Part shown: positions 316-26,299 of the stretch, piece by piece
Position numbering within the stretch: position 1 is the stretch's first letter
Layout: the number at the start of each line of letters is the position of its first letter
IMG/VR virus record: IMGVR_UViG_3300031687_000077
Coordinates: 1 to 29,214 of that record
Length of the DNA: 29,214 nucleotides
Strand: one strand, 5' to 3'
Source of the DNA: a virus
Position numbers and translations under genes: made by a program
Notes under the pieces: generated by a model
What the model was told of the DNA's origin: nothing
What the model saw: only the letters and a program-made list of their open reading frames with translations
Databases searched by the model: none

Positions 316-1521
316 ATGGCTGGAAAGAACTTACATTTAGAACACCTCGAAGACGAAATCATTAACTATGGAATCGCAGGTGGTCGTGCATCAATCAATT
401 TCTTAAGAGAGTTAAGAGATATGATGAAAGGTAATGCATCAGGTCGTGTCAACATGACTGTTAAGTGGGACGGTGCTCCTGCAATTTGGTGTGGCCCTCA
501 TCCTGAAACAGGAAAATTCTTTATCGCAAAGAAATCACTATTCAATAAAGGTGGTGGACTTTTCTATTCTAGTATAAAGGAAATCAACGACACTTCCGAC
601 TTAAACGGAACACTTAAACAAAAATTTACAGAAGCATTCAATGCTTTTTCAGGTATCGGAATGAAAGAAATCCTGCAGGGAGACTTGATGTTTACTTCGG
701 GAGACAAAAGTAACACTAAGATGGATGGAGTAGATTACATTACATTCCAACCAAATACTATTGTATACGCAGTTCAGAAGGATTCTAAGTTAGGAAAAGA
801 GATTGCAAGTGCAACACTAGGTGTAGTTTGGCACACAACTTACAAGGGTTCAACAATCGAAGGTTTGTCTGCATCATTCGGTGCAAAACTTCCACCTGCA
901 CCATCCAAGGTTTGGCAAGATGATGCAACATACAAAGATACAACTGGTTATGGTAACATGACTGCACAAGAAACACTTAAACTAACACAAGCACTTACTG
1001 CTACAGGTAAATCATTTCATGGTATCACTGCGAAAGACCTCAAAAAGTTCAATGACATACAGGGAGTTCTTAATTCAAAAGGAGCTGCAGGTGCATCGTA
1101 CAAAACGTACACTAACACCCTTATCCGTAATAATAAATGGAATCCCAATGGAAAAGACTATCTTACACACGTTGAGAACTACTGGAGAGATAAGATAGTT
1201 GCAAAGGTTAAGATGCAAAAGACTAAAGACATCAAGATACAGGTTGGTAAAGATGTCATGAGAGACTTAAATATCATTAAGAAGATGGTAGATAACCTTG
1301 CTCAATTCCAAGGACATCTAATCACATCAAAATCATTGATTATTACTGCGTTAAATAGAATAAAGAGTATAGGAACCTTTGTTAAGACTGATAAAGGATT
1401 CAAGGTTGTAAACCCCGAAGGATATGTCGCAATCGACTCAGACGGGTCTGCAGTAAAACTTGTAGATAGAATGGAATTCAGTCATAATAACTTTACAGCT
1501 GCAAAGGCATGGGACAAATAA
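316..1521 (+). CDS. DUF6267-type phage protein, ligase/nucleotidyltransferase-like
   Basis: The protein is 401 aa from ATG 316; an in-frame TTG at 298 would add six residues, and neither start has a clear ribosome binding site. Its N-terminus resembles a protein widespread in marine T4-like phages that I recall as DUF6267. Residues 48-56 read TVKWDGAPA, which fits motif I (KxDG) of covalent nucleotidyltransferases with K50 as the possible nucleotidylated lysine. QGDLMF (121-126) could be motif III with Asp in place of Glu. Near the C-terminus PEGYVAI (367-373) fits motif IV and AVKLV (379-383) fits motif V. The gap between III and IV (about 240 residues) is far larger than in ligases, so an inserted helical domain or a diverged fold is implied. 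It is followed by a nucleotidyltransferase-kinase gene. The family match is recollection; ligase activity is inference. Confidence 0.75.
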   Translation: MAGKNLHLEHLEDEIINYGIAGGRASINFLRELRDMMKGNASGRVNMTVKWDGAPAIWCGPHPETGKFFIAKKSLFNKGGGLFYSSIKEINDTSDLNGTLKQKFTEAFNAFSGIGMKEILQGDLMFTSGDKSNTKMDGVDYITFQPNTIVYAVQKDSKLGKEIASATLGVVWHTTYKGSTIEGLSASFGAKLPPAPSKVWQDDATYKDTTGYGNMTAQETLKLTQALTATGKSFHGITAKDLKKFNDIQGVLNSKGAAGASYKTYTNTLIRNNKWNPNGKDYLTHVENYWRDKIVAKVKMQKTKDIKIQVGKDVMRDLNIIKKMVDNLAQFQGHLITSKSLIITALNRIKSIGTFVKTDKGFKVVNPEGYVAIDSDGSAVKLVDRMEFSHNNFTAAKAWDK

Positions 1522-1715
1522 TGAAAACATTCGGAGAGTTATTAGATGAGACAATTAGAGTACCTATAAGTATAGGTGATACAGTTCTCGGTGGTAAGTT
1601 CAAGAACAAAAAAATGATAGTAAAGTCTATCGAGAAAAATGAAAAGGGAGACATTACTATTAATGGTAAACCTTTCATGAAATTTAGGGTAATGAATCAA
1701 GATGAAATCGTTTAA
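1521..1715 (+). CDS. Small protein with T4 internal-protein-like N-terminus
   Basis: The protein is 64 aa. The start is the ATG in the TAATG overlap with the upstream stop; an ATG 12 bases earlier (1509) is also in frame but lies within the upstream gene. The first ten residues, MKTFGELLDE, line up almost position by position with the T4 capsid-targeting peptide MKTYQEFIAE, which gp21 cleaves after I/L-x-E. The rest (IGDTVLGGKFKNKK, then a short basic and acidic segment) looks like a compact beta domain of unknown function. Its 3' end overlaps the next gene by 14 bases, so the two are probably translationally coupled. Confidence 0.8.
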   Translation: MKTFGELLDETIRVPISIGDTVLGGKFKNKKMIVKSIEKNEKGDITINGKPFMKFRVMNQDEIV

Positions 1716-3003
1716 AAAACTATTTGAAGCAAAGGGTGAAAAGGTTGTATTTACTTTTGGTAGATTCAATCCACCTACTGTTGGTCACGGAAAACTAATC
1801 GATGCACTTAAGAAAGCATCGGGTGGTGGATATGCACCCCTAGTGTATATGTCACATTCCCAAGACCCAAAGAAGAATCCCTTAGACTATAACACAAAAT
1901 ACAAATGGATGAAGAAATTCTTTGGTAAGAAAGTTGGTGTAGTAAATTCAAATTCAAGACAGGTATTTCAAATTGTAACAGAACTATATTCTAGAGGATG
2001 TAGAGACGTGAGAATGGTTGTGGGTTCAGATAGAGTTAGAGAATTTGATACACTTATAAGAAAATACAATGGGTCTAAAGGTAAACATGGATTCTATAAT
2101 TTTGATAATATTGAAATCATATCTGCAGGGGAAAGAGACCCCGACTCAGATGATTTGGTTTCAGGAATGTCTGCAAGTAAAATGAGAAAGGCCGCAGAAG
2201 AAGGAGATTACGATTCTTTTAAACTGGGTGTTCCATCTAAAATGATGACCGACCAAGCGTTACTTTACAAAGAAGTAAGAAAAGGTATGAGTATCAAAGA
2301 AGAAACAATGCCAAACTATATGTTTGAGGATATGTTAACTGAAGGTGTTTATGACCAAGGTATATTCAAAGCAGTATTTCTAATGGGTGGGCCAGGAAGT
2401 GGTAAATCAACAGTGGTTGATGCACTATCTTTAAAGACACTAGGTCTTAAAATGATTAACAGTGACGTTCACTTTGAAAGACTTATGAAAGATGCAAATA
2501 TGTCTATGAAAATGACCAAGACTGGTAGTGGGGAAGTCAACCCCGAAAGAGATGCACTCAGAAGTAAAGGAAAGAAGATTGCAGGGAAACAATTATCAAT
2601 GCACGCTCCTGCTAGATTGGGATTAATCTTCGACACTACTAGTGCAAAAGCATCCAAGATTCAGAACTACAAAAAAGAATTGGATAAACTAGGTTACGAA
2701 TACAAAATGATATTTGTTAAGACTAGTCTATCACTTGCACAACGACTCAACTCAATGAGAGCAAGAGTAATACCCCCTGAAATTCTTATTAAAGAACATG
2801 AAATGGTCGCTAAAAATGCAGAAGGATTTAAAAGATTATTCAAAAAAGATTTCATAGAAATCCTAAACGATGATACAGTTAAGTCACTAGAAGCAAAATC
2901 TAGTAGACTATACGGACAGATGCTAGGATGGACTTCAAAGTTCCCTACGAATAAAGTTGCACTCGACTGGAAACAGCGAGAGTTAACCTTAAAAAAGAGA
3001 TAA
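1702..3003 (+). CDS. Nucleotidyltransferase (NMNAT/cytidylyltransferase-like) fused to P-loop kinase
   Basis: The protein is 433 aa in two parts. Residues about 13-185 form a cytidylyltransferase-like Rossmann domain: FGRFNPPTVGH (19-29) is the HxGH region with Thr for the first His, GSD is at 108-110, and SGMSASKMR (154-162) corresponds to the ISSTxxR motif. Residues about 222-433 are a P-loop kinase with MGGPGSGKST (228-237), an Asp after strand 2 (NSDVHFERL) and an Arg-rich lid around RLNSMRARVIPPE. The layout recalls NadR (NMN adenylyltransferase plus ribosylnicotinamide kinase), but the kinase half looks more like zeta-toxin/polynucleotide-kinase types, so the substrate is uncertain. The N-terminus MKSFKKLFE resembles a capsid-targeting peptide, and the linker carries MLTE (211-214) followed by Gly, a possible second prohead-protease site that would separate the two enzymes. 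Confidence 0.85.
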   Translation: MKSFKKLFEAKGEKVVFTFGRFNPPTVGHGKLIDALKKASGGGYAPLVYMSHSQDPKKNPLDYNTKYKWMKKFFGKKVGVVNSNSRQVFQIVTELYSRGCRDVRMVVGSDRVREFDTLIRKYNGSKGKHGFYNFDNIEIISAGERDPDSDDLVSGMSASKMRKAAEEGDYDSFKLGVPSKMMTDQALLYKEVRKGMSIKEETMPNYMFEDMLTEGVYDQGIFKAVFLMGGPGSGKSTVVDALSLKTLGLKMINSDVHFERLMKDANMSMKMTKTGSGEVNPERDALRSKGKKIAGKQLSMHAPARLGLIFDTTSAKASKIQNYKKELDKLGYEYKMIFVKTSLSLAQRLNSMRARVIPPEILIKEHEMVAKNAEGFKRLFKKDFIEILNDDTVKSLEAKSSRLYGQMLGWTSKFPTNKVALDWKQRELTLKKR

Positions 3004-3006
3004 ATA
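3000..3006 (+). promoter_or_regulatory. Late-type box ATAAATA, 5 bases before the ATG
   Basis: ATAAATA overlaps the stop codon of the kinase gene and ends five bases before ATG 3012. T4 late transcripts start about six bases after the box, which would put the RNA 5' end at or next to the start codon. The same five-base spacing recurs at 6576 and 10719. Confidence 0.5.
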
Positions 3007-3011
3007 ACAAT

Positions 3012-4670
3012 ATGGATATATTAAACCAAATACTTAACGCACAAAAAGAAGTCAGAAAAGAAAAGGTTCAGAACTTCCAATCAATGTTTGAAGAAGACGA
3101 TAACCCTTGTTGGAAAGGTTTTAAGCAATTGGGGATGAAAAAGAAGAACGGTAAAGAAGTACCTAATTGTGTCCCTATGAGTAAAGAAGAACTTAAGTTG
3201 GCAGGTATCCGAAAAGAAGAGGTAGATTACTCTCACTTTAATGAACAGAATGTTGCAATCAAAACTGCAAATACAAAAGCAAAACAAATCGATGATTTGG
3301 AATCTCTTAAAATTAAACACGAAAAGGAAATCGAAAATCTAAAGAAAAGACACGATAGAGATAACGATAGACTTGCAGGTGAAAAAGAGAGAGAATCAGA
3401 AAACGATGCAATCTCTAAGAAGAGAGATGCAACTAGAAGTGAATCTATTGATGAGAAGTTCAAACCTTATGCAGATAAAGTATATTCTAGATGTGTAGAT
3501 TTCTACATTCAATTCAGAGGTGGTAAAGGAGACAGAATCACTTCAGAAGAGAATAAGAAGGACTTTGAAACTGCAAAGAAGATGATTGATGCATATTGTA
3601 GAACAAATAAAATCAAACAGAAACCAGTTTACTCAACACCTCAAGAAGGTTCAAGTGCATACAAAGTCGGTCTTATGATTGACAACTCTTATAGTAAAAC
3701 AGATGACTATGAAAGAGGTGTAGACTTACAACCTCTATATGTGTCATTAAGTAAACTAAAGACTGCAGAAGACCACGGTGGTGGTTGGGATAAAGCAACT
3801 CCTTCAGATTCCCGAAGATTGAAAGGGGCAGTAATTGGTGAAGAAAAGAATTGTGGTTGTGGTAAAACTCCTTGTGAAACATACGGTGAAGAAGTCCAAG
3901 AAAGAAATTCAGATGTAATGAAAAAGAGAAATCAGTCTCAACAAAAGGCCCATCAAAAAGCAATGATGAAGTCTGCAAAAAAGTCTATCAAGGACTATGA
4001 TGCAAAGAATAAGAATAAGAATGAAGATACCGAAGTCGAAGAAGGTAAAATCAAATACCGTGGTAATCTAAAAGACCTATTGAACTCTAAACTCAAGGAA
4101 GAAGAAAAAGTAGAATGTCCTGAGTGTAACGGTCAAGAAGGTGGATGTGACCATTGTGGTGGTACAGGTTATCATGTAACAGAAGGTAAATTAGTTTCAG
4201 CTATTCAGGACGTTATTGATAATGTTATGAATAAAATCAATCAACAAGTCGGAAAAGAGATTGCTAAGAACCAAGAGAAAGGTCTTGGTATGTTGAATAC
4301 ACTAGGTTCATTTGTTGGTTACAAGGTCACTGATAAGAAACAAGAGAAAGGAAAGTTATTCCTTAAGTTTGGTGACAATATGGACGAAGAATTACAAGAA
4401 AGGGACTATAAATCAGAGTACGAGAACTACCATAAAGACCCTGAACAAATCAAAAGACGTGCGAAGAGAAATGAAGCACGAAGAATGTTAAAGAATAGAA
4501 AAGGAATTAAAGGTAAGGATGTTCATCATAAAGATAACAACCCTATGAATAATGATAAAGATAATCTATCGATTGTTTCACAAAAGTTCAATAGAACCGA
4601 ACCAAGACTTAGAATCAATGCTCAGTGGGTTAAGGCCGCTGCTAAAAACAAGAACAAAAAGGGGAAATAG
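3012..4670 (+). CDS. Long modular protein with Cys clusters and C-terminal HNH-like nuclease domain
   Basis: The protein is 552 aa. Near the N-terminus it carries NPCWKGFKQLGMKKK followed by PNCVP, a short module common in marine phage proteins. Next come a charged probable coiled coil (about 80-150), a globular stretch (about 155-270), and a Cys cluster NCGCGKTPC encoded near 3850-3880. A second cluster near 4117-4164, CPECNGQEGGCDHCGG, looks like a DnaJ-type zinc ribbon. The last roughly 110 residues look like an HNH domain: a basic RRAKRNEARRM helix, then VHHKDNNPMNNDKDNL. Modules are joined by acidic linkers containing EEGK, VTEGK and LQERD. No SD sequence precedes ATG 3012. The likely role is a virion or packaged protein with DNA-nicking potential; this is inference from domain and location. 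Confidence 0.8.
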   Translation: MDILNQILNAQKEVRKEKVQNFQSMFEEDDNPCWKGFKQLGMKKKNGKEVPNCVPMSKEELKLAGIRKEEVDYSHFNEQNVAIKTANTKAKQIDDLESLKIKHEKEIENLKKRHDRDNDRLAGEKERESENDAISKKRDATRSESIDEKFKPYADKVYSRCVDFYIQFRGGKGDRITSEENKKDFETAKKMIDAYCRTNKIKQKPVYSTPQEGSSAYKVGLMIDNSYSKTDDYERGVDLQPLYVSLSKLKTAEDHGGGWDKATPSDSRRLKGAVIGEEKNCGCGKTPCETYGEEVQERNSDVMKKRNQSQQKAHQKAMMKSAKKSIKDYDAKNKNKNEDTEVEEGKIKYRGNLKDLLNSKLKEEEKVECPECNGQEGGCDHCGGTGYHVTEGKLVSAIQDVIDNVMNKINQQVGKEIAKNQEKGLGMLNTLGSFVGYKVTDKKQEKGKLFLKFGDNMDEELQERDYKSEYENYHKDPEQIKRRAKRNEARRMLKNRKGIKGKDVHHKDNNPMNNDKDNLSIVSQKFNRTEPRLRINAQWVKAAAKNKNKKGK

Positions 4671-4672
4671 AA

Positions 4673-6310
4673 ATGTCAGACGGTAACAAAAACAATAACG
4701 GAGTTCATGAAGTGGGAACAGAGGAAACTCGTCTTGCATACCAAAATGATACTCCTGGCCAACAGGTTGAAAGATATCTCAATACAATCAATCAAGTGAT
4801 TGAAGAAAAGAAAGAGAAACAAAAGAAAGCTTTCACTAAGGTATTCGATAACCCCCTTAAAGGATTCCCTTACAATGAAACTTTAGATGATTCTTTTGTT
4901 GATGATATTCAAGAAGCACCTAAGTTAAAGAACTTGATACCTGAATTTGAAAAGATTGTAAAGACTAAAGGTGCAGCTAAAGTACAAGGTACTATGGTAG
5001 ATATGTTTACTGCAAGTGTTATTGTAAAAGCATATGAACAAGTCAATGATAAGAACAAAAAGAGAATGGAGACATCAAATGTATTCACTCTTATTAAACT
5101 TGCACAAAAAGTTATGGGTATGAAAGAAGAAACTGTATCAGAAGCAATGAAAATAAAAGATATCTTCAAGAAACATAAAAGAGAACTTACAAAAGCATAC
5201 AAAACTGGTGATTTATCATTCTCAGGGTCGGCAGGTAAGAAAGCAGAAGATGACCTAACAACATGGGCGATGGACAACAATGAAATTAAGACTGATGACC
5301 CCGATGAGTTTTTTGATTGGTTGTCTCGTGACCTTGAAGATATAGTCAAAGGTAAAATTAGAGAAGAAACTGTTTCTGAAAAAGTAGAGTACGCAGAGTA
5401 CAAATTCAAAAACAAAAAAGATGCTCAGAAAGCACTAGACTACTTTAAAAGTCAACAGAGAATTAAACTAGACATCAACGATGATGGATTAAGTCAAGGT
5501 GAACTTGCAATCGATGCTGGTAATAAGGACATGACTAAACAACACAAAGAAGTGTTGAAAATGTTTAAACCAAAAGTTCTAACAACAGAAGGTACTGAAC
5601 AGGATGCTTCGGGTGAAGGAACACCAAATAAAGATGATGTTCATTTACCTACTGATGCCAGAGATGATAACGGAGTACTTTCAGAAGGTAAAATGAGTGA
5701 ACTATTCCTAGACATTCAACAAGGTGCTACAGCAAAAGACATCGCAAGAGACTATCCAGTTACACTTGCACAAGCAAAAGACTTCCTTAAAGATTACTAC
5801 GGTCAGAAGAAAAAACCTATGAATATGGGTGAAGGAATGCAAAGTTCTAAACTTACTGGACAAGAGATATCAGTATACTTCAAGAGAAATAAAGTTAGAG
5901 ATGCAGAAACAAGAAAGGCAGTTGAATTCGCACTTGACCATGGTGGTGCATACTCTTATGCAATCAAAGGTATTGAGAAGATGAAGAAAGGTCTCTCAAA
6001 GAATAAAGATGTTGTAAAAGCACTCAACTTTGCAAACTATGGTGAATCAGTTAAGGTTCCTTCAGTAGGATTCCAGTTTAAGGAAGACTCACCTGTTGCA
6101 GGTAATATGCAAGTCGAAGGAGACCCATATATACCTCAGAAGAAAGGAGTTAACAAGAACATTGCGAACTACTGGAATAAAGAGATTAAAGGGTTAAAAG
6201 ACAAAGAACTAGAAGCAATCCAATCCATGTACATGATAACAGACCATAGTGGTGTTGTTCAAATGTACAAGGCAGGTAAAAGAGACTTTATTAAGTCTAT
6301 AAAATCCTAA
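4673..6310 (+). CDS. Long modular phage protein, probable virion/internal protein
   Basis: The protein is 545 aa and starts three bases after the HNH gene. It contains several small charged helical modules joined by acidic linkers: ETVSEAMKIKDIFKKHKREL, ETVSEKVEYAEYKFKNKKDA, VLTTEGTEQDASGEG, GVLSEGKMSELFLDIQQGAT and MGEGMQSSKLTGQEISVYFK each begin or flank a module. The recurring [V/L]-x-E followed by G, A or K resembles prohead-protease sites, so cleavage into peptides in the head is possible. The module after LSEGKMSEL has an HTH-like pattern (AKDIARDYPVTLAQAKDFLK). I recognise no catalytic motif. A late-type box directly follows its stop. Confidence 0.8.
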   Translation: MSDGNKNNNGVHEVGTEETRLAYQNDTPGQQVERYLNTINQVIEEKKEKQKKAFTKVFDNPLKGFPYNETLDDSFVDDIQEAPKLKNLIPEFEKIVKTKGAAKVQGTMVDMFTASVIVKAYEQVNDKNKKRMETSNVFTLIKLAQKVMGMKEETVSEAMKIKDIFKKHKRELTKAYKTGDLSFSGSAGKKAEDDLTTWAMDNNEIKTDDPDEFFDWLSRDLEDIVKGKIREETVSEKVEYAEYKFKNKKDAQKALDYFKSQQRIKLDINDDGLSQGELAIDAGNKDMTKQHKEVLKMFKPKVLTTEGTEQDASGEGTPNKDDVHLPTDARDDNGVLSEGKMSELFLDIQQGATAKDIARDYPVTLAQAKDFLKDYYGQKKKPMNMGEGMQSSKLTGQEISVYFKRNKVRDAETRKAVEFALDHGGAYSYAIKGIEKMKKGLSKNKDVVKALNFANYGESVKVPSVGFQFKEDSPVAGNMQVEGDPYIPQKKGVNKNIANYWNKEIKGLKDKELEAIQSMYMITDHSGVVQMYKAGKRDFIKSIKS

Positions 6311-6317
6311 CTAAATA
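6311..6317 (+). promoter_or_regulatory. Late-type box CTAAATA
   Basis: CTAAATA begins one base after the stop of the modular protein and precedes a small gene that uses a TTG start. It matches the other intergenic boxes in the window. Confidence 0.5.
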
Positions 6318-6330
6318 CTTGGAGAAGTAC

Positions 6331-6579
6331 TTGAAGGATATCTTGACGGAACAACACGGAACAGGTATTAAATATCTGATTAGGACGTTTAATGATTCGG
6401 TTCCTTTAGAGATTGTGAATGGCATGAAGAAGACTATGCACATTCTAAGTGGTAATGGGTGGTGTATGAGAGAACGAGGTTATATGCCAATTGAACTAAA
6501 ACTGGGTAAAGAATATACAATGAAGGGAAACCTTGAAAAAGGGGAATCTGAGTTGGTAGTTAGAATCCAAATAACATAA
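6331..6579 (+). CDS. Small protein with TTG start
   Basis: The protein is 82 aa. I chose TTG 6331 because GGAG (6321-6324) sits six bases upstream; TTG 6319 (four more residues, MEKY) and ATG 6424 are alternatives. The N-terminus MKDILTE is again a short peptide ending in L-x-E. The remaining sequence is beta-rich and carries a GNGWCMRERGYMPIELKLG segment, with no recognised family. A late-type box overlaps its 3' end. Confidence 0.6.
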   Translation: MKDILTEQHGTGIKYLIRTFNDSVPLEIVNGMKKTMHILSGNGWCMRERGYMPIELKLGKEYTMKGNLEKGESELVVRIQIT

Positions 6580-6582
6580 ATA
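6576..6582 (+). promoter_or_regulatory. Late-type box ATAAATA, 5 bases before the ATG
   Basis: ATAAATA overlaps the upstream stop codon and ends five bases before ATG 6588. No SD sequence is seen for this start, so a late transcript would be leaderless or nearly so. Confidence 0.5.
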
Positions 6583-6587
6583 AAGAT

Positions 6588-6971
6588 ATGAGTCATAAAA
6601 CAGAAAACTGGCAAGATGCACTATTAAGAGTTCGTAAGGGTCTTAATGAGTCAAACACACCTGTTGAAAAAACAGAAGACGAAATCATCTCGGAAGAGAT
6701 TGATGCACTTATCGGGTTATTAGAAGACGATAAAAAGGATGCATTGAAAGATGTCCCTAGTGCTGGTGATAAATTTGATGCAACTAAACTTAAAGACGCT
6801 GACGGTAAAAAGTTGTATGATACTGGTATCAAAGAAAATGCACTAGAAGGTATGTTAACTAAACTTACCGAAAAAAATATGTTAGGTAGACTTGCAAAGT
6901 CAATGGAACTTAACGAAGAAAACAAACAAAAATTATTCGATTATTTCGAATCAGGAGAGTTAGAACAATGA
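6588..6971 (+). CDS. Acidic small protein, putative internal head protein
   Basis: The protein is 127 aa, strongly charged and mainly helical. The N-terminal 21 residues end in GLNE, then SNTPVEK, a possible L-x-E cleavage site. A long acidic segment follows (EDEIISEEIDALIGLLEDD), then a segment with DATKLKDADGKKLYDTG. It overlaps the next gene by an ATGA. No family recognised; the packaged-protein idea rests on the N-terminus and neighbours. Confidence 0.75.
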   Translation: MSHKTENWQDALLRVRKGLNESNTPVEKTEDEIISEEIDALIGLLEDDKKDALKDVPSAGDKFDATKLKDADGKKLYDTGIKENALEGMLTKLTEKNMLGRLAKSMELNEENKQKLFDYFESGELEQ

Positions 6972-7447
6972 GTTTTACAGGATTTCAATTAGGTTTAACA
7001 GATTCTTTAATCGAAGCATCTAAAAAAGTTGTAGAGTCATCAGCAGAATATAAGAAGTTCTTTGATGGTGCATTAAAGAAATTTGGTGTTACATCCCCAG
7101 CAGAATTATCAGATGAGAAGAAGAAAGCTTTCTTTGATTACATCGATAAGAACTGGAATGGTGAAGATGAGTCAGGAAAAGACGGTGCAAAATCAGAAGG
7201 AACACTTCCACCTGCTCTTCAAAAACACTTAGACAAGAAAAACGGCAAAAAAGACGATTCTAAAGACGAAGACAAAGAAGATGTCAAAGAAGGCGAATTA
7301 CCACCTGCATTGCAAAAAGCAATAGACAAGAAGAACGGTAAAAAAACTGATGACAAAGAAGATGTCAAAGAAGAAGAGAAAGACGAAGAAGAAGTAGAAG
7401 AATCTCCAAAACCATCGAAAAAATTCCTAAAAGCACGGTATAGTTAA
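6968..7447 (+). CDS. Small protein with LPPALQK tandem repeat
   Basis: The protein is 159 aa and starts at the ATGA overlap. The N-terminus ends in SLIE, then ASKK (residues 13-20), a possible I/L-x-E site. Residues about 28-63 form a helical module (KKFFDGALKKFG, AELSDEKKKAFFDYID) that I have seen in marine phage proteins. After it come two copies of a 17-residue repeat, LPPALQKxxDKKNGKK type (79-95 and 110-126), each followed by a Lys/Asp/Glu-rich spacer ending in EDVKE. The tail is highly charged and probably disordered, ending with a basic KKFLKARYS. Confidence 0.8.
   Translation: MSFTGFQLGLTDSLIEASKKVVESSAEYKKFFDGALKKFGVTSPAELSDEKKKAFFDYIDKNWNGEDESGKDGAKSEGTLPPALQKHLDKKNGKKDDSKDEDKEDVKEGELPPALQKAIDKKNGKKTDDKEDVKEEEKDEEEVEESPKPSKKFLKARYS
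7202..7345 (+). repeat. In-gene tandem repeat encoding LPPALQK...KKNGKK
   Basis: Two 51-base units (7202-7252 and 7295-7345) encode 17-residue repeats identical at most positions, separated by a 42-base acidic/lysine spacer. Many differences between the DNA copies are synonymous, so the repeat is kept at the protein level and is not a recent duplication. Confidence 0.85.
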
Positions 7448-7451
7448 TACC

Positions 7452-7841
7452 ATGAGTTTAGTTAGAGTCATCAAAGAACATAATATCCTTGCAGAAGCAA
7501 GTAGAGATTATTACAAACAGGTAGATGCTCTTATTGGTAAACACGGGAATGAAACAGCATTCAGGTACAAGTCACCTATGCACAATAAAATGATTACAGA
7601 TATCAAAAAATTGATGAAATCTGAAAAAGAGTTTCCTGAGTCACAAAAAACTTCTACTAACATCATGAAGAACATGAATGCAGGTTTTGAGATGATGGGT
7701 TACGAAGAAAACATAGTTATGACTGAAAGACAACACAAATCACTGGACAAAGATTGGACAGGTGATACTGCATTTAGAGAAGACCTTGCAAGAATATTAA
7801 TGCAAGACGCTATTATGTCACACGCAATATTTGGAGAGTAA
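7452..7841 (+). CDS. Small helical protein, putative internal head protein
   Basis: The protein is 129 aa and starts four bases after the previous stop, with only a weak binding site. Its first 15 residues, MSLVRVIKEHNILAE, end in L-A-E and are followed by ASRDYY, a good candidate capsid-targeting peptide. The rest is helical with several Met and Lys residues (MHNKMITDIKKLMKSEKEF). No catalytic motif or known family is recognised. Confidence 0.75.
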   Translation: MSLVRVIKEHNILAEASRDYYKQVDALIGKHGNETAFRYKSPMHNKMITDIKKLMKSEKEFPESQKTSTNIMKNMNAGFEMMGYEENIVMTERQHKSLDKDWTGDTAFREDLARILMQDAIMSHAIFGE

Positions 7842-7842
7842 C

Positions 7843-8151
7843 ATGAACTTATACGAAGCTTACAGAGATATGAAGCTTTCTGAAGAGATTGTAGATATTA
7901 CTGTAGATAAGAACAATAAAATCGCATCGTCTTCAAAACAGAATTCGATGGCATTGTTGGTTCATAATGCAGGAAAGAGAATGGGTCTTAAATCTTCAAT
8001 GGTGGGTAAACACATTAGAGTTAAAGGTTCAAAGAAGATGATACAAGACTTCATGATGGTAGTCATAGGTAAATCATCTTACGGTGACCCAACAGAACAA
8101 GACACATCAACACCTCAGATAGATAAGATGTTGTCAAAAGGATTAAGATAA
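7843..8151 (+). CDS. Small protein with capsid-targeting-like N-terminus
   Basis: The protein is 102 aa. ATG 7843 is chosen because GGAG (7833-7836) lies six bases upstream; an in-frame TTG at 7831 would lie in the preceding gene. The N-terminus MNLYEAYRDMKLSE ends in L-S-E. The body is a basic alpha/beta segment (GKRMGLKSSMVGKHIRVKGS) that could bind nucleic acid, but I recognise no family. It ends just before a GTG-started gene. Confidence 0.7.
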   Translation: MNLYEAYRDMKLSEEIVDITVDKNNKIASSSKQNSMALLVHNAGKRMGLKSSMVGKHIRVKGSKKMIQDFMMVVIGKSSYGDPTEQDTSTPQIDKMLSKGLR

Positions 8152-8152
8152 C

Positions 8153-8710
8153 GTGGAAAGAGTAGACGCTAGATTTAAAACTTTTAAAGAGAAAATTAAA
8201 AAACTCGGTTATATGAAAGGTGAGGCGAAGAAAGTCGCACAAGTCATGGAAAAGGTTGCAGACTTCGGAATGATGTCTGATGCAGGGAACCAAAAGGTTG
8301 CTCGTGCAGTATCTAAAGCAAAAACCGAAAAAGATTTGAGAGATGCGTTAAAGAAAATTGCTACGATGGCAAAAGGAAAGTACGCAGAAGCTGGTGAAGA
8401 TGACGTTATCCAAAGAGCAATTTGGGCAATGGGTTCTTCTGCAGTAGGGATGCAATTGCGACCTGATGCACAAGTATTAATGCAACTTAAGAAATTAATT
8501 GATACTGGAAGAGACCAAGACATCAGAACAGATGATATGAAGACTATGAAGGTCAAGGCGAAAGATGCAGAAAAGGTTCATGACGTTTTAATGCAACTTA
8601 AGACTCCTGATCGGTCTAAATACCTTATATTATTACAGAAAGACATAAAGTCTTTTAAAACCAATTTTAACGGTATACTTAAGTTTGCCAATAAACAACT
8701 TAAAAAATAG
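8153..8710 (+). CDS. Helical Lys/Ala-rich protein with GTG start
   Basis: The protein is 185 aa. The frame opens at GTG 8153, two bases after the previous stop, with a weak AGGA-like site upstream; ATG 8213 is an alternative. The sequence is basic and almost wholly helical, with KKVAQVMEKVADFG, SKAKTEKDLRDALKKIATMA and a Lys-rich C-terminus (KFANKQLKK). A DNA-associated or packaged protein would fit the composition, but there is no recognised domain. It holds the only GATC tetramer I found in the window (8609-8612). Confidence 0.75.
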   Translation: MERVDARFKTFKEKIKKLGYMKGEAKKVAQVMEKVADFGMMSDAGNQKVARAVSKAKTEKDLRDALKKIATMAKGKYAEAGEDDVIQRAIWAMGSSAVGMQLRPDAQVLMQLKKLIDTGRDQDIRTDDMKTMKVKAKDAEKVHDVLMQLKTPDRSKYLILLQKDIKSFKTNFNGILKFANKQLKK

Positions 8711-8721
8711 AGGAAATCAAA

Positions 8722-9270
8722 ATGGCATTATGGGGACATAAATCGGGAACAGAGAGTAAACCTAACTGGTTATCTACTGCCGAAAAAGAAAAAACACAAG
8801 CAACAGCAGGTGGTTGGGAACTTTCAACAGTTGTTGGTTCTAGAACTCGTAAAGAAGTTTTAGTATCAATCAATGGTTTGAATACTCTACTTGCAAATGC
8901 TAACATCACATCATTCTTATGGACTACTACTACAGTAGATAAATCAGAAGGATTCACACTTGCTCTAACTGCAACATTCAATGAAGCAGTAGACGTAACA
9001 GGTTCACCTACATTTACAGTAGTTAATGACCAACGTGCTGACCATGTATTAACATACTTGTCAGGTACAGGTTCAAATGAGATTAAATTCGCACTTGCAA
9101 TCGCAGCTGCTAACGCCGCTACTAACGCTGGTGACGTACTTTCAGTCGGTGCAAATCCAATCGCATTGAATAGTGGAACAATTAAAGATGCAGGGACTTC
9201 AGTAGTATCAACTATTACTTCAGTCGCTTCAATCGGAGTCACTGCTGGAACTAAAACAGTAGTTGCATAA
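8722..9270 (+). CDS. Putative virion protein with Ig-like domain
   Basis: The protein is 182 aa, with GAGG (8710-8713) eight bases before the ATG. The N-terminus MALWGHKSGTESKPNWL recalls structural proteins of marine T4-like phages. Residues about 70-160 look like a bacterial Ig-like (Big/SwmB-type) fold: LALTATFNEAVDVTGSPTFT, then VLTYLSGTGSNEIKFAL, then ALNSGTIKDAG. That pattern is common in surface repeats of adhesins, so a head-decoration or fibre-associated role is plausible. The Ser/Thr/Ala-rich, Lys-poor composition differs sharply from the charged genes before it and suggests a rigid exposed protein. Confidence 0.8.
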   Translation: MALWGHKSGTESKPNWLSTAEKEKTQATAGGWELSTVVGSRTRKEVLVSINGLNTLLANANITSFLWTTTTVDKSEGFTLALTATFNEAVDVTGSPTFTVVNDQRADHVLTYLSGTGSNEIKFALAIAAANAATNAGDVLSVGANPIALNSGTIKDAGTSVVSTITSVASIGVTAGTKTVVA

Positions 9271-9281
9271 GGTAGGTTAAT

Positions 9282-9545
9282 ATGAAAGTAAATGTATTAG
9301 GAACAGAAGCCGCTTGTGGAGTAAGTTCAACTAACGGTTCAAACTTTGGTAAAGGAACTTGTGTTAGACTTCACAATAGTGGTGCTAGTGCAAGATTAAT
9401 ATCTGTAGAAACTTCTGCAGCTGCACTAATTGGTACATTTACACTAGGTGCAGGAAGTACAGTTAACTGTTCAAAGAACCCTACAGACGAAGTATTTGCA
9501 GCTCACGCTGAAGTACTTGGAGTCTCAATAGGAATAATAGGATAA
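9282..9545 (+). CDS. Small beta-rich putative virion protein
   Basis: The protein is 87 aa with GGTAGG upstream. It is low in charge and rich in Ser, Thr, Ala and Gly, with alternating beta-strand patterns (TCVRLHNSGASARLISVETS, GTFTLGAGSTVNC). Similar small proteins follow Ig-like virion genes in marine phages. A capsid accessory or decoration role is inferred from composition and position. Confidence 0.7.
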   Translation: MKVNVLGTEAACGVSSTNGSNFGKGTCVRLHNSGASARLISVETSAAALIGTFTLGAGSTVNCSKNPTDEVFAAHAEVLGVSIGIIG

Positions 9546-9549
9546 TAAT

Positions 9550-9948
9550 ATGAAAAAATTTGCAGAATTTATGAACGAAGGATACTCACACGACAGTGCA
9601 GGATTGTCATCAACTCATGTCCCCCATGATATTAATGACCCTGAAGTAAAAGCAAGGATTAATGCCATCCTTGGTCATTGTGCAGTAAGTGAATTCTTAA
9701 ACCCAAGTGCCGCTATTGGAATAATCAATTCTAAACTAGGTCAACTTGGTATCGCACTTGACAGTGATGCTCCTGAGATATCTGAAGGTGGTAACTACAC
9801 TATCGGAATGAAAAGATACGGAGACCAGTTTGGTAAAACCGTAGACACTCCTCATGACGAATTTGATACTAAAACTGAAACAGTTACATTAACACTTAAG
9901 GTCGAAAAACTCGCAACAGGTTCATTCAAAGTATACGGAAGTATCTAA
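9550..9948 (+). CDS. Small protein with capsid-targeting-like N-terminus
   Basis: The protein is 132 aa. Its N-terminus MKKFAEFMNE has the length and spacing of the T4 peptide MKTYQEFIAE, with Met in place of Ile before x-E. It is followed by GYSHDSAGLSS. The remainder includes a helix with AILGHCAVSEFLNPSAA and a beta segment (TVTLTLKVEKLATGSFKVYG). It ends in a TAATG overlap with the next gene. Family unknown. Confidence 0.75.
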   Translation: MKKFAEFMNEGYSHDSAGLSSTHVPHDINDPEVKARINAILGHCAVSEFLNPSAAIGIINSKLGQLGIALDSDAPEISEGGNYTIGMKRYGDQFGKTVDTPHDEFDTKTETVTLTLKVEKLATGSFKVYGSI

Positions 9949-10196
9949 TGTCTAACCAGTTTGACACTATTCGTGCAATGTTGGAAGGTGTGGAATTAGA
10001 AGAAGCACCAAAGATGAAAGGTCTTTCCATATACGGTTCAGAAGTATCAGGACTAAGACGTTCTAAGGGTAGTTCAATGGGTACTTACACTGCTAAACCA
10101 GTTGTACTCAAAGGAAAATTAGGATATCGAGTAGAAGATGACAATGGTGGATTTGAAACTCTTGACCTTAAATCTTTTGCAAAGATGTACGGATAA
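9948..10196 (+). CDS. Small protein, translationally coupled
   Basis: The protein is 82 aa, starting inside the TAATG overlap. The first 19 residues end in VELEE followed by APKMKG, another short leader with an L-x-E. The body is basic with a possible SH3-like beta fold (GTYTAKPVVLKGKLGYRVED). Function unknown. Confidence 0.7.
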   Translation: MSNQFDTIRAMLEGVELEEAPKMKGLSIYGSEVSGLRRSKGSSMGTYTAKPVVLKGKLGYRVEDDNGGFETLDLKSFAKMYG

Positions 10197-10211
10197 ACAC
10201 AAAGTAATGTC

Positions 10212-10218
10212 CTAAATA
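10212..10218 (+). promoter_or_regulatory. Late-type box CTAAATA
   Basis: The box lies in the 54-base gap after the previous stop and 32 bases before ATG 10251, a normal leader length. This contrasts with the boxes that end five bases before the ATG. Confidence 0.55.
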
Positions 10219-10250
10219 CTTTTGAAATTTAATTATATTATGGAAATTCT

Positions 10251-10622
10251 ATGGGTCTATTCGACAAACTCACTGTAAAAAACTTTAGTGCATTCGCACT
10301 TCAAAACTATGATGACCCTCAATGTGCAGACATAGAGGAGTTTCAAGAAGACTTAAGAAGGTTTAGATACCTTAAGAGACTTCTACATAGATATCATGAA
10401 GCAGGTGAACTCAGAGAACGTCTCATGTTAAACCATCTCATTACTATATTCAATGTATTTGGATATGCAGCTTCAATGAGAATGTTAGAATTTAAAATCC
10501 AAGAACCAACATATTGGTCATCCATCAAAACAATGTTATTATATCTAGGTTACATCGAAGATACATGGGAAACAGACATCCCAGTTAACGGTGAATTAGC
10601 GCAAAAACTTAGAGATTTATAA
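10251..10622 (+). CDS. Conserved T4-like phage protein of unknown function
   Basis: The protein is 123 aa. It has a strongly helical core: EEFQEDLRRFRYLKRLLHRY, then a RERLMLNHLITIFNVFG segment and a hydrophobic C-terminal helix around IKTMLLYLGYIED. I recall this pattern as a conserved short protein in marine T4-like phages, without a known function. The next gene is tRNA-Thr, one base after its stop. Confidence 0.8.
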   Translation: MGLFDKLTVKNFSAFALQNYDDPQCADIEEFQEDLRRFRYLKRLLHRYHEAGELRERLMLNHLITIFNVFGYAASMRMLEFKIQEPTYWSSIKTMLLYLGYIEDTWETDIPVNGELAQKLRDL

Positions 10623-10623
10623 T

Positions 10624-10699
10624 GCTGGATTAGCTCAGTTGGTAGAGCAACTGATTTGTAATCAGTAGGTCGTCAGTTCGAATCCGACATCCAGCACCA
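10624..10699 (+). tRNA. tRNA-Thr (anticodon UGU)
   Basis: The acceptor stem GCTGGAT pairs fully with ATCCAGC. The anticodon stem ACTGA/TCAGT closes the loop TTTGTAA, giving anticodon TGT for ACA codons. The T arm contains GTTCGAATC, and the discriminator A and CCA (10697-10699) are encoded. It starts one base after the preceding stop. Confidence 0.95.
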
Positions 10700-10718
10700 T
10701 TCGGGGGGTTTAAAACAC

Positions 10719-10725
10719 CTAAATA
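10719..10725 (+). promoter_or_regulatory. Late-type box CTAAATA, 5 bases before the ATG
   Basis: The box lies between tRNA-Thr and the next gene and ends five bases before ATG 10731, the same spacing as at 3000 and 6576. No SD sequence lies between the box and the ATG. Confidence 0.55.
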
Positions 10726-10730
10726 GATAT

Positions 10731-11291
10731 ATGCGTATCGTAGACACATTAATAGTATTCAGAATTCTTAAGATGTTAACAACACCTTGGAAAAAGTTTG
10801 ACGCTCATAAGTTGGGTATAATCGATGATAAAGGAACTCGATTAAAAGATAAGAAAATAGAAACCAACGATGATAAACAAGCGTATTCTTTACTCCATAG
10901 GTTAGTATTCAACCTTAAACGAATTCTCAACAAGGTTCCATTCGGTAAAACTGCATTTGCATCTTATGCTGTTGCACTACTTTTACTGAAGGAAGAAACT
11001 AAACTAGACGAAGAACAAATGGATGAACTTTGTGAAAAGTTCTACAGGGTTCTAAAGACCGAAGGTATCCTACAATCAGAAATGATTACAGAAACTATCA
11101 AGGTTCCCGAACTTATGGTCGGATGTAAATATAGACTAAAAAGACAATTGGTCGAACAAAACGAAAAAACTTATCTTCCTAAAACAGAGGTGGACATCAT
11201 TTCAGAACACAGCATGGTGTTTGGACTGAAAGTCTATGTCGGTTATATTGACAACGAAAGAGTATTGGTGACTGGCGATGACTTATACTAA
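10731..11291 (+). CDS. Conserved marine T4-like protein, putative virion-associated
   Basis: The protein is 186 aa. The N-terminal half has a conserved-looking helical pattern (RIVDTLIVFRILKMLTTPW, then HRLVFNLKRILNKVP and FASYAVALLLLKEE). The C-terminal half is beta-rich (LMVGCKYRLKRQLVEQ, MVFGLKVYVGYIDN). I recall similar proteins in cyanophages and other marine T4-like phages without assigned function. The start is ATG 10731; no SD sequence is seen, but the late-type box is directly upstream. It overlaps the next small gene by 14 bases. Confidence 0.8.
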   Translation: MRIVDTLIVFRILKMLTTPWKKFDAHKLGIIDDKGTRLKDKKIETNDDKQAYSLLHRLVFNLKRILNKVPFGKTAFASYAVALLLLKEETKLDEEQMDELCEKFYRVLKTEGILQSEMITETIKVPELMVGCKYRLKRQLVEQNEKTYLPKTEVDIISEHSMVFGLKVYVGYIDNERVLVTGDDLY

Positions 11292-11433
11292 AAAACAACA
11301 TTTAAAGGTGTGGGAAGATGCACCAATGAACGCAACTGGTGTTGGAATGTCCTTACCAGTAGATGCAGTAAAGAAAAAAAAGAAGAAGAGAATGCCAGAT
11401 GAGGTATTCAAGGTACTAAAGCGAAAACTTTAG
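11278..11433 (+). CDS. Small basic protein (51 aa)
   Basis: ATG 11278 opens a 51-aa frame ending at TAG 11431-11433 that overlaps the previous gene by 14 bases. The sequence reads MTYTKKQHLKVWEDAP, then NATGVGMSLPVD, and then a run of seven basic residues (KKKKKKR) before the final MPDEVFKVLKRKL. Similar short proteins with a poly-Lys stretch after an N-T-G-V segment occur in marine T4-like phages in my recollection. Function unknown; the Lys tract would suit nucleic-acid binding. Confidence 0.7.
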   Translation: MTYTKKQHLKVWEDAPMNATGVGMSLPVDAVKKKKKKRMPDEVFKVLKRKL

Positions 11434-21574: not shown

Positions 21575-21958
21575 ATGCAACAACTTTTAATAGGAGTAAT
21601 ACTTGTCCTCGGAATGGGTTCATATTACCTCTACAATCAAAATCAAACACTAAGTGCAAATAATGTTGCATTAGAGTATGCAGTCGAAGAACAGAAGGCG
21701 ACCATGACTGCACTCAGAGAAAACTTTGAGAGACAAACTGCCGCCCTTCAAAATATGTCTCGTAAGAACGCAGAGATTGAAGAAGACAAAGCAAGGTATC
21801 TATCCATCCTATCCAAACATAACTTTGAAAGACTTGCAACCGTCAAGCCAGGGTTAATGGAGAATAGATTTAATAAAGGAACGGTTGAAGTAATTGAGGG
21901 AATAGAAAATGACACTAAAGACATTAGCAATCTTGAGTCTCCTAATACTAACGACTAG
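21575..21958 (+). CDS. Putative inner-membrane spanin (Rz-like)
   Basis: The protein is 127 aa with AAGGAG before the ATG. It has one N-terminal membrane segment (about 3-20, LLIGVILVLGMGSYYLY) and then a long periplasmic coiled coil (about 25-90). That is the usual form of an i-spanin, which disrupts the outer membrane during lysis together with an o-spanin. The 3' end overlaps the lipoprotein gene by 50 bases in another frame, the arrangement typical of Rz/Rz1 pairs. There is no sequence match to lambda Rz, so the call rests on architecture. Confidence 0.7.
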   Translation: MQQLLIGVILVLGMGSYYLYNQNQTLSANNVALEYAVEEQKATMTALRENFERQTAALQNMSRKNAEIEEDKARYLSILSKHNFERLATVKPGLMENRFNKGTVEVIEGIENDTKDISNLESPNTND

Positions 21959-22406
21959 TTGTTCGTTAATACCTGAAAGAAAGGTAGAGATAATAAGTAA
22001 ACCGATTGAGATAGAAATCATTCAACCTACATTACCACGTCCCTTAGACCTACAACCACCAAAATGGTATGTAGTATCTGAAGCGAGAATCGCCAATCCA
22101 TGTAAGAAGGTTACACTAGAAGATGGAACAGAGAAGAGACCAAAGACTTGTGACCAAGACATGAAAACTAACCCCGAATGGAAAGAGGGTTACACTTACC
22201 TAGATAGATTCTTAGATGAAATGAGAGACCTGAACAGTGGTGATGTTGTATTTGTTGCAACAACTGTTGGTGACTACAAGGTCATGATAAAGAACAACCA
22301 AGAGATTAAGAGATACATCAAACAACTCGGAGAAGTGATTGTTGTATACAGAGACGTTACTATGTCAGATGGTCAAAAAGGAATAGTAGCAGAAGTTAAA
22401 AAATAA
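21909..22406 (+). CDS. Putative outer-membrane lipoprotein, o-spanin candidate
   Basis: The protein is 165 aa. The signal peptide MTLKTLAILSLLILTTSC ends at a near-lipobox Cys18, with Leu at -4 and Thr at -3, which is slightly atypical. After it comes a Pro-rich region (IQPTLPRPLDLQPPKW), as in Rz1-type proteins. A folded C-terminal domain follows (GDVVFVATTVGDYKVM and KQLGEVIVVYRDVT), making it much longer than classical o-spanins. The gene starts inside the i-spanin-like gene with a GAGGGA site. It could be an extended o-spanin or another periplasmic lipoprotein. Confidence 0.7.
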   Translation: MTLKTLAILSLLILTTSCSLIPERKVEIISKPIEIEIIQPTLPRPLDLQPPKWYVVSEARIANPCKKVTLEDGTEKRPKTCDQDMKTNPEWKEGYTYLDRFLDEMRDLNSGDVVFVATTVGDYKVMIKNNQEIKRYIKQLGEVIVVYRDVTMSDGQKGIVAEVKK

Positions 22407-25260: not shown

Positions 25261-25280
25261 TAATGAAAGAAGGAGAATAT

Positions 25281-25934
25281 ATGAAAAATATATTAACAGG
25301 ATTGTTAATAACAATCTTATCTGCACCTGCATTTGCAGGGTCAGTATCGGGTGGTTTAAACTATGGTTCAGACTACATTTTTAGAGGGATGTCGCAATCG
25401 GGTAAACCGACTGCCGGCGCATGGTTACAATTAGATTCCGATTTAGGATTCTATGCAGGTGCATGGGGTAGTCAAGTAGACTTCTCATCCATGGACTCAT
25501 CAGAGACCTCTCAGGAAGTAGATTACTATGGTGGTTATAACCTACAAGTAAGTGATTCAGTGTCAGTAGACATGGGATATCAAAGACTTACATTTAATGG
25601 TTTAACACCCAGTGTTGAAGAGTTCTACTCTAAAACACAAATAGGTAATCTTGGTATCGATGTATATCAAGACTTAGAAACTAACGACAACTACGCAGAG
25701 ATATCATATGCATTCGGATGGTTATTCGATAACGCTTTTGATGCATCTCTAATGTTTGGTACTCACGATAGAAAAGGTGACGACTCATTCACTATGTTGA
25801 GGTTAGGTAAATCATTTGGTTCACAAAACCAATTTAACTTTGGAGTGTTAGTCGGTCAGAATGTCTTTGAAGGACAAGTTGCTGACTCAATCACTGCAAG
25901 ATTATCATATAACTTTAAGAGGAGTAACTCATGA
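25281..25934 (+). CDS. Outer-membrane beta-barrel protein, TIGR02001/Gcw_chp-like
   Basis: The protein is 217 aa from ATG 25281, chosen because AAGGAG lies six bases upstream; ATG 25263 is a weaker alternative. It has a signal peptide (MKNILTGLLITILSAPAFAG) cleaved after AFA. The mature part begins with SGGLNYGSDYIFRGMSQSG, the hallmark of the bacterial Gcw_chp/TIGR02001 family. It continues as alternating strands (LGFYAGAWGSQVDF, VDYYGGYNLQVSD) and ends with an aromatic C-terminal strand (ITARLSYNFKRSNS). In bacteria these are outer-membrane proteins of unknown function. In a phage it may alter the host surface or permeability during infection. It overlaps the next gene by an ATGA. Confidence 0.85.
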   Translation: MKNILTGLLITILSAPAFAGSVSGGLNYGSDYIFRGMSQSGKPTAGAWLQLDSDLGFYAGAWGSQVDFSSMDSSETSQEVDYYGGYNLQVSDSVSVDMGYQRLTFNGLTPSVEEFYSKTQIGNLGIDVYQDLETNDNYAEISYAFGWLFDNAFDASLMFGTHDRKGDDSFTMLRLGKSFGSQNQFNFGVLVGQNVFEGQVADSITARLSYNFKRSNS

Positions 25935-26123: not shown

Positions 26124-26199
26124 GGGGTCTTAGCTCAGTTGGGAGAGCGCTTCCCTTGCACGGAAGAGGTCGCAGGTTCGACCCCTGTAGACTCCACCA
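26124..26199 (+). tRNA. tRNA-Ala (anticodon UGC)
   Basis: The acceptor stem GGGGTCT pairs with AGACTCC (one G-U). The anticodon stem CTTCC/GGAAG closes the loop CTTGCAC, giving anticodon TGC for GCA. The T arm carries GGTTCGACCCC, and CCA is encoded (26197-26199). Confidence 0.95.
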
Positions 26200-26209
26200 G
26201 TTTCTAATT

Positions 26210-26299
26210 GGAAGATTGGCAGAGTGGTTGAATGCACTGGTCTTGAAAACCAGCAAAGGGTCAAACCTTTCGAAGGTTCGAATCCTTCATCTTCCGCCA
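26210..26299 (+). tRNA. tRNA-Ser (anticodon UGA)
   Basis: The acceptor stem GGAAGAT pairs with ATCTTCC. The anticodon stem CTGGT/ACCAG closes CTTGAAA, giving anticodon TGA for UCA. A long variable arm (AAAGGGTCAAACCTTT region) confirms a class II tRNA. Discriminator G and CCA (26297-26299) are encoded. It lies ten bases after tRNA-Ala. Confidence 0.95.

Follow-up and report, generated by a model that had tools for sequence, protein, structure and literature searches.

Phage T4 carries internal proteins that are injected as inhibitors of type IV restriction (PMC12373910). For one of them, IPIII, mutational mapping by Mullaney and Black, which PMC9026906 summarises, assigned targeting to leader residues 4 and 7 and processing to residues 8 and 10. 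Both ends of T4 Alt, a large injected ADP-ribosyltransferase, undergo gp21 processing (PMC9026906). Here we analyze a 29,214-base virus record of IMG/VR (IMGVR_UViG_3300031687_000077; hereafter the window), which belongs to a T4-like marine myovirus of Kyanoviridae type and whose nrdA is ~70% identical at the DNA level to that of cyanophages and of Pelagibacter phage HTVC008M. Upstream of its gp61-type primase and nrdA genes lies a gene block (316–11433), in which the leaders of genes 1521, 1702 and 9550 (genes are named by their first base) are, with high probability, T4-type capsid-targeting sequences (CTS). This kind of tag is already known from T4. What seems to be new is how far it has spread among T4-like phages of the sea, that enzymes bear it, that a cleavage site is retained where two domains are fused, and that it ties in with virion-associated enzymes left unexplained in published proteomes; we found no prior paper linking a T4-type tag to cyanophage virion enzymes in the searchable literature, which leaves most subscription journals outside.

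A homologous block occupies the interval from gp41 (helicase) to gp61 (primase) in HTVC008M, Methylophilales phage Melnitz-3, S-SM1 and S-SCSM1 and, judged from flanking genes, in the related contigs G005 and G006. The three window leaders resemble those of T4 IPI, IPII and IPIII, which follow MKxFxxF[IL]xE↓ (the arrow marks the cleavage position), have their determinants at residues 4, 7, 8 and 10 and join mature parts that are otherwise unrelated. Unlike these small restriction inhibitors, of which no homologue was recognised among the window proteins, the window cargo includes enzymes (a nucleotidyltransferase-kinase), forms a block between gp41 and gp61 and has one member with an extra LxE at a domain junction. 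Alt is likewise a large enzyme cargo, but its leader, MELITELFDE, does not show the CTS pattern and did not score with the matrix described below.

Leader motif of genes 1521, 1702 and 9550

A position weight matrix (PWM) was trained on leaders taken from isolates and from T4, and it contained no sequence of the window's clade. Its leader list was picked by eye, so the tests were run on genomes outside the training set. Genes 1521 (13.3), 9550 (13.2) and 1702 (11.9) stood apart from the rest of the 43 window genes, the next best of which scored 2.2, and when residues 2–30 of all 43 genes were shuffled, three such genes appeared in 0/2000 runs. Because of these scores and shuffles we do not attribute the three matches to chance; they are exactly the genes that the initial annotation had picked out as close matches to the T4 peptide. 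All have Phe at residue 4, with Leu (1521, 1702) or Phe (9550) at residue 7, and end in LDE (1521), LFE in a nine-residue form (1702) or MNE (9550, with orthologues that have Ile at residue 8). The three proteins have no family match in common, yet share this leader type.

In 25 ten-residue leaders, Phe is found at position 4 in 24, position 7 is F, Y, L or H, position 8 is L, I, M, V or F, and positions 3, 5, 6 and 9 vary freely; Glu at position 10 (25/25) follows from their selection as E-ending ten-mers. When a PWM made from marine leaders alone was applied to the 268 genes of T4, the four highest scores went to 61.1, ipI, ipIII and ipII, with the fifth gene far behind (6.4 vs 13.0). CTS targeting of 1521, 1702 and 9550 is well supported because the T4-mapped determinants, this retrieval of T4 internal proteins by a marine motif and the virion proteomes of relatives agree. 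Plain BLOSUM similarity to MKTYQEFIAE was discarded, as it gave false positives (S-CREM2 gp83) and ranked virion-detected and undetected proteins no differently (Mann–Whitney p = 0.44); the PWM outperforms it because the functional positions get weight.

The best-scoring CTS of the T4 genome, MKTFKEFIKE, is that of 61.1 (NC_000866, 18966–19130, locus L032), which lies between genes 61 and 41; we found no report of 61.1 as an internal protein in the searchable literature. It is a single gene of 54 aa in the same interval that holds a whole block in the window. By eye, its C-terminal TTSGAVVNKGP..PKKKK resembles the window protein at 11278–11433.

The loose motif [LIVM]xE within residues 5–20 occurs in 9/14 block genes vs 3/25 genes beyond 11.4 kb (Fisher p = 0.0013), a background of about 12% that is lower than the third assumed in the initial annotation. 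An extended rule (an aromatic near residue 4; a hydrophobic, aromatic or His residue three later; then [LIVMF]xE) is satisfied by 1521, 1702, 6968, 7843, 9550 and 9948, that is by 6/14 block genes vs 0/29 genes outside 1500–10200 (p = 0.0005); having been formulated after inspection of the data, it is weaker evidence.

Six weaker leaders had also been proposed for packaging, and this list was over-inclusive: 6968, 7843 and 9948 pass the extended rule, whereas 6331, 6588 and 7452, judged by aromatic or hydrophobic residues at 4 and 7 together with LxE, do not pass and were ruled out as CTS leaders. The 7843 leader is arranged like that of T4 IPI, which has F4, F7 and a distal ITE; relatives are few, and the orthologue at locus L008 has MNIFETYRTLKNIQE. 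At 6968 the site is kept in 10/11 relatives, but the entire N-terminus is conserved too (compare HTVC008M 103767, MLSFTGYSNLSE), and at 6588 the L.E kept in 10/11 relatives also lies inside a conserved N-terminus. The L008 homologue of the 9948 segment is internal, with SLEE just before it. As packaging leaders 6588, 6968, 7452 and 9948 are unproven: 6968 and 9948 are possible, and 6588 and 7452 have no backing apart from their conserved site. The 6331 leader does not hold as a targeting signal, yet as a cleavage site it is better supported than had been thought: its HGTG domain is preceded by [LIVMF]xE↓[QK]HGTG in 21/21 distinct contexts with divergent residues upstream, and it is probably cut although it lacks targeting residues. 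All genes and leaders of the initial annotation were found where it placed them; the start at 6331 is an in-frame TTG within a TTG open reading frame (ORF) starting at 6319, and that at 7843 an ATG within a TTG ORF.

Predicted cleavage sites and the prohead protease

Alignment over related phages showed that the functional positions of the leaders are kept, that others vary and that leaders are swapped between orthologues. Orthologues of 1521 exchange leaders (MSTFGEFLGE, MKSFKEHMTE, MKTFSQFNE, MATFGELLDE) in front of a constant mature start, [TNS]I.[VI]PI; in HTVC008M the domain is fused within a larger, leaderless protein. The 9550 orthologues begin with MKKFAEFINE, MKKFAEFIAE or MKNFRDFITE, with MKNFKNHIAE in Melnitz and with MKSFKDFQNVNE in HTVC008M. 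Relatives of 1702 have about 39 distinct leaders, almost all of which fit the pattern M-x(1-3)-F/L-x-x-[FIL..]-x(0-1)-x-E↓A. In a close relative of the window (contig G005, 18020–18229, locus L130), an additional small gene with the perfect leader MKTFNEFLIE lies between the 1521 and 1702 homologues. A nucleotidase-like protein served as control: its in-block homologues (HTVC008M 111128, Melnitz 19277) are extended at the N-terminus ahead of the conserved start, and the window copy (20437), outside the block, is not.

Homologues of gp21 are present in HTVC008M, in both cyanophages (S-CREM2, S-SCSM1) and in 5/8 related contigs; the head region lies beyond the 29 kb of the window. At the column of the T4 gp23 cut (FLTE↓A), HTVC008M, S-CREM2, S-SCSM1 and contigs G001 and G002 all have L-x-E. 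The LxE specificity that gp21 has in the T4 internal-protein system is therefore probably conserved.

LxE sites coincide with domain boundaries in the kinase (30/30 contexts), in the HGTG domain and, as [LIVMF]xE precisely at the boundary, in the 1521-type domain (12/13); these contexts are related by descent and indicate constraint, not independent events. The kinase appears the most telling of the boundary sites when the genes are compared. In HTVC008M it is a separate gene with its own leader, starting MIPFILKE↓GLYDPGIFKA, whereas in the window's clade it is fused to the nucleotidyltransferase and the site is kept (MLTE↓GVYDQGIFKA in the window), the junction reading [LIM]xE↓G[VL]YD in all distinct contexts. 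The AF2 model of the 1702 protein has pLDDT <50 at residues 1–11 (the leader) and 200–221 (the junction).

Foldseek matches of the 1702 kinase domain were adenylate kinase, polynucleotide kinase and zeta toxin. Assignment of the protein to NadR (NMN adenylyltransferase plus ribosylnicotinamide kinase) was rejected because the TIGR01526 score, 16.2 bits, is far under the cut-off of 341; the kinase is nearer to AAA_33, zeta toxin, PSTK and PNK. Our guess is that the cargo serves NAD or nucleotide/RNA-end metabolism, or possibly counter-defence, and it is speculation that the window enzymes restore NAD or repair RNA ends early in infection.

We propose that the block between gp41 and gp61 encodes proteins bound for the head interior. 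By analogy with T4, the Phe at residue 4 and the Phe or Leu at residue 7 would dock the precursor onto the prohead core, and a gp21-type prohead protease would cut behind [I/L/M/F]-x-E, so that the mature protein is freed before the DNA is packaged or while this happens. At the second [L/M/I]xE, in the flexible 1702 junction, gp21 would also split this protein into two enzymes. The cargo would then be injected alongside the DNA and would act ahead of phage gene expression. Packaging of the tagged proteins is likely; cleavage after Glu by gp21 is probable, and delivery into the host cell with the DNA is inferred, both on the T4 model. Taken as a whole, a block of head-interior cargo that is targeted, cut by gp21 and injected seems to us probable. 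It is a more tentative idea that marine T4-like phages use the T4 tag as a general modular delivery system, in which enzyme modules bounded by LxE would be made as tagged precursors or polyproteins, cut by gp21 in the head and injected as a set. That set might comprise the nucleotidyltransferase and kinase here and, in other phages, a SAM hydrolase, protein kinases and a Cas9-like nuclease, all acting before gene expression.

Virion proteomes of relatives and competing explanations

Several groups that found NMNAT-like enzymes, kinases, a SAM hydrolase and a Cas9-like nuclease in purified cyanophage particles could not tell whether these were cargo or contaminants. That a number of them bear a T4-type tag offers a mechanism, and it gives an easy way to recognise cargo from sequence in an ocean virus group of great abundance. 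In the S-CREM2 virion proteome (52 proteins detected, PMC10665884 Table 3), a marine-trained PWM score of >=7 was reached by 5/28 detected proteins not named structural vs 0/167 undetected ones (p = 4e-5). The five are the SAM hydrolase gp6 (MKDFDSFLEE), gp13 (MKDLHSFLTE), the APH-like kinase gp14 (MKRFDAFLTE), gp136 (MQTFSMFFSE) and the cytidylyltransferase gp154 (MKNFSSFLTE). A SAM hydrolase in the virion would fit the anti-restriction theme of the T4 internal proteins. The Cas9-like nuclease gp12 (OR473000, 7704–10313, minus strand, locus L028), also detected in S-CREM2 virions, has a CTS-like RFASFMAE↓A at residues 18–25. We treat it as a candidate tag because it is not at the annotated N-terminus and a CTG codon directly precedes it; the true start may be misannotated.

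The initial annotation had named the nucleotidyltransferase as packaged cargo, and its homologues are indeed present in virions of S-SM1, S-CREM2 and S-SCSM1, each with a leader. The cytidylyltransferase T4-GC190 of S-SM1, detected in virions by mass spectrometry (PMC3037559), begins with MKKFSAFLNE↓A, and the NMNAT encoded by orf91 of S-SCSM1 with MKSFLQFLKE↓A. These enzymes and S-CREM2 gp154 share a homologous domain with the window protein, and in S-SM1 and S-SCSM1 the relative gene order is also that of the window; unlike 1702, none has the fused P-loop kinase and its [LIM]xE junction. We found no mention of the leader by the authors in the accessible portions of these cyanophage nucleotidyltransferase studies. 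In the syntenic block of S-SCSM1, orf89, 90, 91, 92, 93, 95 and 97 are annotated as virion proteins, and with a threshold of 8 the PWM marks 2/17 virion proteins vs 1/234 others (p = 0.012).

Several results weigh against the proposal of packaged, gp21-cut cargo. S-SCSM1 orf30 (MKTFKQFMSE) is tagged yet undetected in the virion, while orf90, 92, 93 and 97 are virion proteins with no leader, so that the leader is not necessary and is a good but incomplete virion marker. The tag predicts undetected cargo in orf30, as in T4 61.1 and the sibling contig gene with MKTFNEFLIE. The block leaders of HTVC008M are more divergent and few of them score. The DUF6267 gene that opens the block lacks a leader in all retrieved relatives of the window's clade with a usable start, although its counterparts in HTVC008M, Melnitz and C48C1 carry one. 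G005 and G006, the contigs closest to the window, are fragmentary and do not contain gp21. A TAAATA late-promoter-like motif lies upstream of 7/20 block genes vs 3/23 others, a trend only (p = 0.09). The published proteomes show presence and not N-termini, and they come from cyanophages, none from the window's clade.

The tagged proteins might instead be prohead core or scaffold proteins, targeted and cut by gp21 for a role in assembly and then mostly lost rather than delivered. Core proteins do appear to share the tag, as the sequences suggest: in G001 (71973–72272, L121) and G002 (48692–48988, L127) the gene that separates gp20 from gp21, at the gp67/68 position, has the leaders MKSFQQMTEELNE↓AK and MKSFASISRELYE↓AK, and gp21 itself has a similar leader. 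Several block proteins are of low complexity, acidic or basic, and modular. However, homologues with enzyme folds are present in purified mature virions, cargo content differs among phages as that of core proteins does not, and in T4 the injected proteins bear the same tag. A core role for the tagged proteins is thus unlikely.

That abundant late proteins are carried over in CsCl preparations, LxE sites being incidental, was raised as a caution by the authors of the S-CREM2 and S-SCSM1 proteomes themselves (PMC10665884, PMC9602691), and the regulator RegA is also listed as an S-SCSM1 virion protein. Yet carry-over would not be expected to select for a T4-type tag, which no undetected S-CREM2 gene bears at a score of 7 or more, nor would it place the sites at domain boundaries; we consider it quite improbable. 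Shared leaders could also be relics of duplication or recombination between neighbours, or amphipathic starts that arose by chance, with no packaging role. The leaders are short, leader cassettes are exchanged among block genes, and homology at gene starts could favour recombination. Such an origin is very improbable in view of the shuffles, of the functional positions that stay constant over the 1702-type leaders while others vary, and of a motif that, in the out-of-sample test on S-CREM2, foretells which proteins are in the virion and that also picks out the T4 internal proteins.

Further features of the block and the window

Table 1. Coordinates of leaders, cleavage sites, domains and genes in the block (window positions; the arrow marks the predicted cut)
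Position	Strand	Feature	Evidence
316..1521	+	DUF6267 protein, first block gene, leaderless here; ligase/nucleotidyltransferase-like motifs	Pfam DUF6267 7.9e-91
1521..1550	+	CTS leader MKTFGELLDE↓ (high probability) of 64-aa gene 1521–1715	PWM 13.3
1551..1715	+	Predicted mature part of 64-aa packaged protein	Conserved domain
1702..1728	+	CTS leader MKSFKKLFE↓ (high probability) of nucleotidyltransferase-kinase	PWM 11.9
1729..2343	+	Nucleotidyltransferase domain (NMNAT/cytidylyltransferase-like) and linker	Pfam CTP_transf_like at gathering score; PHROG cytidyltransferase 5.5e-60
2332..2343	+	Interdomain site MLTE↓GVYD (residues 211–214), predicted second gp21 cleavage
2344..3003	+	P-loop kinase domain (AAA_33/zeta-toxin/PSTK/PNK-like)	Pfam AAA_33 1.3e-8, Zeta_toxin 1.9e-8
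3012..4670	+	Block protein of 552 aa, modular, with an HNH-like motif at the C-terminus and without a CTS	Matches to HNH_3 and PHROG, weak
6331..6351	+	Short leader MKDILTE↓ from a TTG start; probably cut, but no targeting signal of CTS type
6588..6650	+	Possible cut at GLNE; leader unlike a CTS
6968..7015	+	Possible leader MSFTGFQLGLTDSLIE↓	Passes extended rule
7452..7496	+	Possible cut at ILAE; leader unlike a CTS	Five close relatives only, without independent support
7843..7884	+	Leader MNLYEAYRDMKLSE↓, aromatics at residues 4 and 7, distal LxE	Passes extended rule
8722..9270	+	Block gene	phrog_11617; MALWG N-terminus common to S-SM1_195
9550..9579	+	CTS leader MKKFAEFMNE↓ (high probability) of 132-aa gene 9550–9948	PWM 13.2
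9948..10004	+	Possible leader MSNQFDTIRAMLEGVELEE↓	Passes extended rule via MLE
11278..11433	+	Small basic protein upstream of primase; like T4 61.1 by eye	Relatives with LKVWE↓D leader

The motif KWDG, EGYV, VK..D of the DUF6267 protein is invariant across 32 sequences. Its top Foldseek matches were to DNA ligase IV and were weak (E = 0.03, prob 0.75), among DNA and RNA ligases. Sequence searches of the DUF6267 and 1702 proteins against the PDB gave no match at the limits used, and their profile searches returned weak kinase matches and nothing else. The protein at 3012–4670 has modules in common with block proteins of Melnitz and C48C1. The presumed S-SCSM1 homologue of gene 8722 is orf95, annotated as a virion protein; this homology is taken from block position and the N-terminal resemblance to S-SM1_195.

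A short motif, (D)TPGQ, is repeated in otherwise dissimilar block proteins of the window (4673–6310), HTVC008M, Melnitz and C48C1, and small shuffled modules (PCWKGY..GMKKK, AEYQGKKVTLN and KAxKSGxPxxxLKKVYxRG) also recur in them. The block contains a tRNA-Thr (10624–10699); a tRNA-Ala (26124–26199) and a tRNA-Ser (26210–26299) lie further on in the window. Two overlapping small genes, one membrane-anchored and one lipoprotein-like (TSCS), at 21575–21958 and 21909–22406 have the look of a spanin pair. An outer-membrane-protein-like gene with a signal peptide is encoded at 25263–25934, and the gene at 27688–29007 joins a 2OG-oxygenase-like N-terminal part to a spermidine-synthase-like C-terminal domain.

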